The position numbers were made by a program, and so were the translations under genes. This document shows positions 34,009 to 36,158 of a stretch of 64,000 nt of DNA, piece by piece. Source of the stretch: an uncultured Methylococcaceae bacterium. Lineage in GTDB: Bacteria > Pseudomonadota > Gammaproteobacteria > Methylococcales > Methylomonadaceae. The notes below the pieces were generated by a model that was not told the origin of the DNA, did no database searches, and saw only the letters and a list, made by a program, of their open reading frames with translations. The first letter of the stretch is position 1, and every line of letters starts with the position of its first letter. The stretch lies in assembly GCA_903928685.1 (NCBI GenBank), contig CAIYRS010000050.1, forward strand, positions 1 through 64,000. The letters are read 5' to 3'.

Positions 34009-34259
34009 AAATAACCTATGGCTTTGTAAATTATAATTATTCTTTTGAAAAACATTCCAAAAGCACCCTTTGAAACTATAGCATAAACCAAGATGTAAAA
34101 AAGCAATAGGCTGGTTATCTGTAAGGTTTATGGTTTATTAAACTTTTAACGGTGTCATTTAGGCTTGTGTCATTTTACCAATCACATCAATTCCAACTAT
34201 CAACCCGATTAATTTCTCGAATCTCGTATTGAAAATAAATCGCGGAATATCGTTTCTTT
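34009..34259. other. AT-rich spacer before the 300-bp repeat
   Basis: No gene seen. The stretch is AT-rich compared with the repeat that follows and must contain the promoter of the minus-strand membrane protein. Confidence 0.4.
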
Positions 34260-34559
34260 CGCTGACGGCACATGGAACTTCGAACCGGAGTCGGGAGAAG
34301 TTAGTGCCGTTAGTCCCGCGAAGCCCTCATCGCAACCGGCGTTTTTTCGAGCATGCTTTTCGCGAAGAATAAAATGCAACCGGGCGATGTTGAGAGCGTA
34401 GAGTCAGTGGCACGATGGCACGATCCCCTTGTTGGGTCGGGACGATATGGTGACAGGACGGCGCGGGCTTGCGGAGCAATCTAACCGTCGCGTAGTTTTT
34501 GCGGATTTTCGGGCAGGACGCCCGGAAAATCTTTACGCAAAAATAGCGACTCGCTTAGC
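34260..34559 (+). repeat. 300-bp structured direct repeat, copy 1
   Basis: About 300 bp shared, in the same orientation and at high identity by eye, with 35822-36118. It has a modular structure. The first hairpin is CTGACGGCAC/GTGCCGTTAG enclosing AACTTC/GAAGTT (34261-34311). A middle region has paired CTCATCGC and GCGATG. A long terminal hairpin (about 34488-34550) has outer arms GTCGC/GCGAC and inner arms GATTTTCGGGC/GCCCGGAAAATC. A further stem around 34411-34452 is degenerate here but perfect in copy 2. There is no open frame conserved between the copies and no clear terminal inverted repeat or target duplication. It may be a MITE-like element or a structured RNA. Confidence 0.8.
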
Positions 34560-34622
34560 AGCTTTTTATACATGAATATAATTTGGAACATTCCAGTTAA
34601 AATATAACCAATACCGATTTTT

Positions 34623-35669
34623 TTAACAAATCCTCGGCAATTGCTCGCCACTGAGCAAATCTAACACCCGATTTACGCCCATCGCCGTCTGCAAAGTCAA
34701 CAAGCCTTTGTCATGCGTGGCCTTTACCTTGCCGATAACTGCCGCTTGTTTTCCCAAAGTATGCCCACGCAAAACGTTTAACGCTTGTGCTGTTGCCTGT
34801 TCCGGAACAAACAAGGCAAAACAGCCTTCGTTGGCGATATACAGCGGATCAAAACCCAAAACCTCGCAGGCACTTTGCACATCGGCGTGAACTGGTAACG
34901 CAGTTTCGTTGATTTCAATGGCATGGCGCGACGTGGTTGCCAATTCAATCAACGCGCTTGCCAAACCGCCGCGGGTCAAATCGCGCAGGCAATGGATTGG
35001 CACACCTGCTTCGATTAAATCTTGCACCAAGCCCGACACATCCGAGCAATCGCTTTCGATAGTGCTGTCAAAAGCCATGCCTTCGCGTGCCAGCATAATC
35101 GCCATGCCATGCCGCGCCAGATCGCTGTTGATGATGATGTGGTCGCCCACTTGGATCTGTATAGGCGAAATGTCGGTTTGACCCGCCAACACGCCAATCC
35201 CCGCAGTGTTGATGAATACGCCATCGCCATTGCCGTGATCGACGACTTTGGTGTCACCCGTGACAATCTGCACACCCGCTTGTTCGGCGGTGTGCTGCAT
35301 GGAGGCGACAATGCGTTGCAAGTCGGCAATCGGGAAACCTTCTTCGATGATGAACGCGCAACTCAAATACAACGGCTTCGCCCCGCTCATCGCCAAATCG
35401 TTCAGCGTACCGCACACCGCTAGTTTGCCGATATCACCACCGGGGAAAAACAGCGGTTTGATGACATATGAATCAGTGGTGAATGCCAGCTTGGCGCCGT
35501 TGATATTTAGAATTGCACTATCGTGTTGTTGGTTAAGAATGGGATTGTTAAAAACAGGTTGGATGATATTGCCCTGCAATTGCTTCATCAAGCGCCCGCC
35601 ACCACCGTGGGCTAAGGTAATTTGTTGATATTGTAGGGGGGGGGGACAAGTAAGATTTACGTAGGTCAT
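34623..35669 (-). CDS. hypE: Hydrogenase maturation protein HypE
   Basis: Carbamoyl-phosphate-pathway enzyme that dehydrates its C-terminal thiocarbamate to the thiocyanate donated as CN ligand to the NiFe-hydrogenase centre. The N-terminal LAHGGGG, STDSYVIKPLFFPGGDIGKLAVCGT-like core and GDTKVV are typical. The protein ends in the required PRIC with Cys as last residue. No other hyp or hydrogenase gene is in the window. It has 348 aa, with a short N-terminal extension containing three prolines coded by a C10 run. The ATG lacks a clear Shine-Dalgarno. The gene is enclosed by the two copies of the 300-bp repeat. Confidence 0.94.
   Translation of the reverse strand: MTYVNLTCPPPLQYQQITLAHGGGGRLMKQLQGNIIQPVFNNPILNQQHDSAILNINGAKLAFTTDSYVIKPLFFPGGDIGKLAVCGTLNDLAMSGAKPLYLSCAFIIEEGFPIADLQRIVASMQHTAEQAGVQIVTGDTKVVDHGNGDGVFINTAGIGVLAGQTDISPIQIQVGDHIIINSDLARHGMAIMLAREGMAFDSTIESDCSDVSGLVQDLIEAGVPIHCLRDLTRGGLASALIELATTSRHAIEINETALPVHADVQSACEVLGFDPLYIANEGCFALFVPEQATAQALNVLRGHTLGKQAAVIGKVKATHDKGLLTLQTAMGVNRVLDLLSGEQLPRIC
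35636..35645 (-). repeat. C10 homopolymer inside the hypE 5' end
   Basis: Ten consecutive G on the plus strand are C10 in hypE codons 9-12 (Pro-Pro-Pro-Leu). Gain or loss of one base would shift the frame before the conserved HypE domain. No in-frame Met lies between the tract and the LAHGGGG motif. It is a candidate slipped-strand site, or a sequencing-error hot spot. Confidence 0.8.
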
Positions 35670-35821
35670 ACTTTAAAATTAGTTGATTAAGAGTTTTGTA
35701 AGGTAACGTGGTAAACCAAGCTTTACAAGCGTATTTAAAAAGTCTCTTGCGAATTGTAATGGCAAGTAAATTTTGACAATTCGTTAAGCCGGTTTTAGAA
35801 AAACGTTAGTGGTTGAGCGAT

Positions 35822-36118
35822 CGCTGACGGCACATGGAACTTCGAACTGAAGTCGGGAGAAGTTAGTGCCGTTAGTCCCGCGTAGCGCTTATCGCAACCG
35901 GCGTTTTTTCGAGCATGCTTTTGGAGAAGAATAAAATGCAACCGGGCGATGTTGAGGGCGTAGAGTCAGTGGCACAATGTCCCGCCCCCCTTGTTGGATC
36001 GGGACATTGTGCCAGAACGCCTCGGGCTTGCGAAGCAATCTAACCGTCGCGTAGTTTTTGCAGATTTTCGGGCAGGACGCCCGGAAAATCTTTACGCAAA
36101 AATAGCGACTCGCTTAGC
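35822..36118 (+). repeat. 300-bp structured direct repeat, copy 2
   Basis: Second copy of the unit at 34260-34559, 1.56 kb away and in the same orientation. Its 3' end is 24 bp before the NifA-type site of nifV. The variable central stem is a perfect 14-bp hairpin here (GGCACAATGTCCCG / CGGGACATTGTGCC, about 35970-36013), whereas copy 1 has a decayed version. Both copies keep the long terminal hairpin. The nifV frame reads back through part of this repeat, but that translation is not meaningful. Confidence 0.8.
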
Positions 36119-36142
36119 CGTATTCATCGCCAACCCTCATTT

Positions 36143-36158
36143 TGTCAGCTTCCTGACA
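36143..36158 (+). promoter_or_regulatory. NifA-type upstream activator site for nifV
   Basis: TGT-N10-ACA (TGTCAGCTTCCTGACA), a perfect match to the NifA upstream activating sequence, 85 bp before the -24 element of the nifV promoter, within the usual range. Confidence 0.82.

Follow-up and report, generated by a model that had tools for sequence, protein, structure and literature searches.

Repetitive extragenic palindromic sequences (REPs) span 20–40 bp and in most cases carry a GTAG or CGTC tag, the CGTC REPs also having no known dedicated transposase, and classical bacterial miniature inverted-repeat transposable elements (MITEs) measure 70–300 bp, according to PMC3733652. REPs have also been treated as targets of insertion sequences (PMC1525189), and IS200/IS605 enzymes are described as recognising two tetranucleotides close to the end hairpins, one adjoining the left end and the other closing the right end (PMC6006769). 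The repeat described here, about 250–310 nt in length, is present in two direct copies on either side of hypE in a 64,000-nt stretch of an uncultured Methylococcaceae bacterium (contig CAIYRS010000050.1, positions 1 to 64,000; hereafter, the window). It is best labelled as a hairpin-ended non-autonomous mobile element, and no earlier description of it was found in the open-access PMC literature.

That the repeat is a mobile element seems to us nearly beyond doubt. Indeed, many aligned copies from several lineages share fixed ends, and copies occupy unrelated places in many genomes, some of them inside genes. The genome to which the window belongs (G000, 117 contigs) holds 36 matches, far beyond chance, seven of which are full-length; many of the remaining ones stop at contig ends, so that the repeat breaks this assembly. 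In a relative (G007), at least 12 identical copies were found at different sites. BLAST retrieved matches in 24 of 61 genomes with the window unit as query and in 30 of 61 with the G007 form. A covariance model of the element core (R1), with at most 14 places scored per genome, gave matches in more than half of the sampled genomes of the order (163 of 301), in 131 of 228 good-quality genomes and in 41 of 50 genera. Among the matches listed by an exact 16-mer scan of named genomes were many Methylococcales contigs, above all from Bathymodiolus gill symbionts; chance probably explains the single 16-mer matches in distant taxa such as Streptococcus and Paenibacillus. When the symbiont form was used as query, four plasmid records, all from methanotrophs, and no phage record matched. 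Besides breaking assemblies, the element interrupts genes and is itself invaded by introns and insertion sequences.

A single base is nearly invariant at the insertion site. Of 191 distinct insertions for which both ends were seen, 187 have cytosine four bases before the element (position −4); against a background C of 0.196 this gives a binomial p of 1.4e-125, provided that sites are independent. The same base was found in 55 of 57 and 216 of 220 insertions of two further sets, the three sets overlapping; distinct sites were defined by the 15-nt left flank, and insertions shared by close relatives may count twice. A wider tally gave 279 of 320, including left-end pattern matches without a right end, some of them by chance, and one copy in G029 (L402) carries T at −4. 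The three bases following this C take 51 forms among the 191 insertions, hence the notation CNNN for the left flank. The last four bases of the element itself are CTTA, CCTT, CCTG or CTTG in four sharp-ended lineages, all beginning with C, a point made weaker by the C-rich tails; CCTG and CTTG are fixed by the right-end patterns, which thus do not measure how frequent these endings are. The ending is CCT in one copy (L245). Members with CTCCCC lack a sharp tail end, and at two loci (L316, L319) an element sits directly after the CTCCCC tail of another one. No target duplication was detected in 56 sharp-ended copies, left and right flanks matching each other no better than shuffles. In 6 of 36 pairs of joined flanks a frame of at least 500 nt crossed the junction, compared with 3 and 3 after shifts of 1 and 2 nt, and Pfam domains (VWA, SMI1_KNR4) ran across it in two of the four proteins tested. 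Judging from these joins, insertion appears to be precise, with some interrupted genes restored by joining the flanks.

At its left end the element reads CGCT(G/A) and forms a hairpin that closes at AGTC. The internal two-helix domain comes next, then a central hairpin tipped by CCC...GGG, in many members a small hairpin, and finally a 3' hairpin with a short tail; related left ends occur with at least three right-end types. The window contains the following features, the copy ends being placed by alignment with many other copies:

34260–34557, + strand: element copy 1, 298 nt (repeat search, multi-copy alignment)
35822–36116, + strand: element copy 2, 295 nt (repeat search, multi-copy alignment)
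34256–34259, + strand: CTTT to the left of copy 1, a CNNN target with C at −4 (sequence and C(−4) rule)
35818–35821, + strand: CGAT to the left of copy 2, a CNNN target with C at −4 (sequence and C(−4) rule)
34261–34314, + strand: 5' (left-end) hairpin, copy 1 (predicted fold, stem pairing across members)
35823–35876, + strand: 5' (left-end) hairpin, copy 2 (predicted fold, stem pairing across members)
34312–34407, + strand: internal covarying two-helix domain, copy 1 (model R1, 55.2 bits; covariation)
35874–35969, + strand: internal covarying two-helix domain, copy 2 (model R1, 56.5 bits; covariation)
about 34409–34454, + strand: decayed remnant of the central hairpin, copy 1 (predicted fold)
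35971–36013, + strand: central hairpin, intact in copy 2 (fold, stem pairing across members)
34487–34550, + strand: 3' (right-end) hairpin, copy 1 (predicted fold; same hairpin kind in 22 of 27 aligned members)
36046–36109, + strand: 3' (right-end) hairpin, copy 2 (predicted fold; same hairpin kind in 22 of 27 aligned members)
34551–34557, + strand: 3' tail TCGCTTA, ending CTTA, copy 1 (sequence, alignment)
36110–36116, + strand: 3' tail TCGCTTA, ending CTTA, copy 2 (sequence, alignment)
34623–35669, − strand: hypE, open reading frame (ORF) of 348 aa between the copies, outside the element (name given by the first-pass annotation, from sequence alone)

The hairpins proposed beforehand at the start and at the end of each copy are real. 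Both copies fold better than the mean of dinucleotide shuffles (copy 2, z −4.63, 0 of 200 shuffles as good; copy 1, z −2.71, 3 of 200), and the predicted folds also reproduce a central hairpin that is perfect in copy 2 and decayed in copy 1. Covariation was found in the internal two-helix domain: across 27 aligned members its helices were 96.3% paired, compared with 78.7% in shuffles, with 66 double-changed cells compared with 22.6, and the covariation score was 0.478, as against 0.167 shuffled and at most 0.074 when slid, the structure being derived from the same alignment that was scored. Further pair types were not above shuffles (19 versus 17.1; 84/500). Left-end stems (12 distinct arm pairs, part of the set having been picked by left-hairpin score) and central stems (18 distinct arm pairs, 6 of the 27 members without a match) outdid every one of 2000 shuffles in pairing. 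In the same count the inner 3' stem was not above shuffles (33 of 55 cells versus 31), its register being judged wrong; the long 3' hairpin is present in the predicted fold of 22 of the 27 members. The internal domain shows the covarying structure that would be expected of a functional non-coding RNA. At two G000 loci (L080 on contig C114, L081 on C77), left-end hairpins of about 57 nt stand alone with C at −4, one of them almost palindromic, suggesting that the hairpin alone may move or persist.

No known Rfam family accounts for the element. Release 15 gave no match above the gathering threshold in the whole window, E-value scans of the element returned no plausible family, a scan of 34240–36140 yielded one chance microRNA match outside the copies, and the other low-E matches also fall outside the element. 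The initial proposal of an undescribed MITE or structured RNA comes close to what was found, a multicopy mobile unit whose internal stems covary and which matches nothing in Rfam.

As to how the element moves, we favour an HUH-type single-strand route, with a probability of roughly 0.5. The element would travel as single-stranded DNA, and an HUH-type enzyme, presumably supplied in trans by another gene, would bind both end hairpins, nick after the left-flank CNNN and after the element's own terminal CNNN, and join the nicked ends into a circle, to be inserted 3' of another CNNN. The internal fold might serve either the single-stranded DNA complex or a transcript. Subterminal hairpins are present at both ends, as in members of the IS200/IS605 type, and together with the absent duplication and the matching short end motifs they resemble the outcome of IS200/IS605 chemistry; by this analogy the element would work like these insertion sequences and might belong among them. 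The orientation of copies relative to GC skew leans, weakly, the expected (lagging-strand) way.

Several observations weigh against this route. IS200/IS605 targets are fixed tetranucleotides, whereas here only the base at −4 is fixed and is followed by any of 51 trinucleotides. Of 268 neighbouring pairs of a left and a right end at the examined loci, overlapping loci being counted more than once, none was found to enclose a transposase gene; 257 of these pairs were shorter than 420 nt, and of nine distinct unmasked longer ones two contained reverse transcriptase (RT) genes. Three of 19 genomes (G002, G003 and G016, the last 76% complete) carry the element and no Y1_Tnp match. Such ends were also missing from the 31 fetched Y1 places (L141, L145–L174), bar one weak 53-nt match, and no autonomous parent sharing its ends with a TnpA was found among these places; copies do lie near several symbiont Y1 places, yet no Y1 gene lies between ends. 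The one Y1 match of G000 carries a different REP, against the REP-associated tyrosine transposase (RAYT) as driver. Strand bias is weak (86 to 62; 13 of 20; 21 to 13 in G029), and orientation is 7 to 7 among 14 listed copies of G107. Lastly, terminal hairpins alone leave the covarying interior unexplained.

The examined RAYT flanks had none of the element's ends, and RAYT was rejected as a candidate driver. The Y1 gene of G000 (L141) is flanked by its own GTAG-type repeat, with a GTAGGATGGGCTGACG start. A symbiont IS200 TnpA was discarded as well, its copy at L322 having its own ends and sitting inside one copy of the element. Two entries for long end pairs show a 403-aa gene between two copies, beside short tandem repeats, on a symbiont contig (L278:4230–6207).

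More tentatively, and with a chance well short of even, the element may represent an order-wide, protein-free mobile family whose covarying, RNA-like core is functional and which depends for its movement on an unrecognised kind of enzyme, guided by one C at a distance of four bases from the cut. The covarying interior raises the question of why a gene-free passenger keeps an RNA-like core, and the simple target rule, together with the fixed ends, makes the moving enzyme findable by direct assay.

In DNA transposition only the ends matter, yet the internal domain covaries, which speaks for an RNA-mediated route; we consider this route unlikely, in which the structured RNA would be copied or reverse-spliced into DNA by an RT acting in trans, like a bacterial counterpart of short interspersed nuclear elements. 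Precise insertion and the commonness of full-length copies agree with it, as do two different RT-bearing group II introns found inside copies, both in sense and at different positions (L394:1533–3839 and L351:8609–10805), one in the internal hairpin and the other in the left-end hairpin of its host copy. The introns, however, look like guests, because they occupy different sites; the element itself has no Intron_gpII match, as would be expected from a domain V, nor any other Rfam match, although the same library detects the introns inside the two copies, and the left-flank C and terminal CNNN better suit DNA nicking than an RNA intermediate.

Folded ends, lack of duplication and a very loose target would also suit a tyrosine recombinase acting on folded single strands, as integron integrases do with attC. 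This is rather improbable, since the crossover would lie in the linker between two hairpins and not inside a stem, and attC-type boxes were not recognised by eye.

Even less credit can be given to a system of the IS110 (bridge RNA) type, or to an RNA-guided one (TnpB, IscB), that would move or use the element. On its side stand an IS110-family gene in G000 with the first 59 nt of one copy on one side and a full copy on the other (L142, G000:C7:20500–25500), a TnpB gene on a Methylobacter plasmid, 69 bp away from where a copy has its left end (L397:6825–8280), and a TnpB piece near one copy in G022. IS110 was nonetheless rejected as driver, being beside a copy once and not between both ends, and so was TnpB, which was found in two of nine genomes and in neither G000, G007 nor the symbionts. 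Moreover, identical copies occupy unrelated targets, so no guide varies as it would in IS110 or TnpB guide RNAs. IscB searches gave no match in nine genomes and Y2 transposase searches matched 2 of 14 genomes, the controls giving no match in either case. By eye, the 59-nt piece at L142 interrupts an apparent IS1-type gene, a similar stretch of which is uninterrupted at L081; a common stretch around ATTAGACGAGAAATTAA, perhaps another dispersed repeat, was also seen by eye beside two copies, in the 3'/5' flanks of L004 and L005.

Within the window, the direct repetition of the same unit on both sides of hypE, as first annotated, was confirmed by repeat search as blocks of 185 nt at 92% (spacing 1562) and 116 nt at 93% (spacing 1559). 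The proposed starts were kept, and the ends, originally set at 34559 and 36118, were trimmed to 34557 and 36116 by comparison with other copies; these diverge exactly after ...GCTTA, and the GC following both window copies is therefore due to chance. In line with the stated lack of a shared reading frame, no listed ORF of at least 60 aa lies inside copy 1, and the only one over copy 2 is the nifV frame extended back to an upstream TTG. Copies 1 and 2 are 92% alike, less than the 95–96% likeness of four other full-length copies to copy 1, and each has its own CNNN flank; two separate insertions fit these data, and loss of hypE by recombination between the copies would be possible. No link of the element with hypE or nifV was found; its association with hypE looks incidental, and a special role at either gene is not supported. 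The hypE 5' part holds a run of ten G (35636–35645; C10 on the coding strand), a possible slippage site.

It is very doubtful that the repeat is an RNA of the host, regulatory or structural, dedicated to hypE and nifV: strong folds do adjoin both genes, and the site noted beside the end of copy 2 does exist, a TGT-N10-ACA lying at 36143–36158, 26 nt past the copy, but copies are scattered over unrelated places, interiors of genes included, in many genomes, and the central hairpin is lost in copy 1. A classical MITE driven by a DDE transposase is the least credible of all, despite a short, multicopy unit without coding capacity, as the window stretch has no ungapped inverted repeat of at least 20 nt, sharp-ended copies show no target duplication and frames are exactly restored in some joins.

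Compared with known systems, the element resembles classical MITEs (RUP, NEMIS, ERIC) in size range and lack of genes; these have terminal inverted repeats of 15–30 bp, whereas the window stretch has none of 20 nt or more and no duplication was detected. It shares with HEARO and TnpB guide RNAs a structured, mobile and multicopy unit of a few hundred nt, but unlike these it has no Rfam match, and neither G000 nor G007 has TnpB. Many palindromic copies and single hairpin copies recall REPs and bacterial interspersed mosaic elements (BIMEs) with RAYT; the full unit is, however, 250–310 nt rather than 20–40 bp, it is flanked by CNNN and not tagged GTAG or CGTC, and the GTAG-type repeat next to the RAYT of G000 differs from it in sequence. 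Compared with palindrome-associated transposable elements (PATEs) and other non-autonomous IS200/IS605 derivatives, it differs in having no parent insertion sequence found, a single fixed target base and a conserved interior, and agrees in its hairpin ends, free of inverted repeats and duplication, and in the short motifs at its left and right ends.
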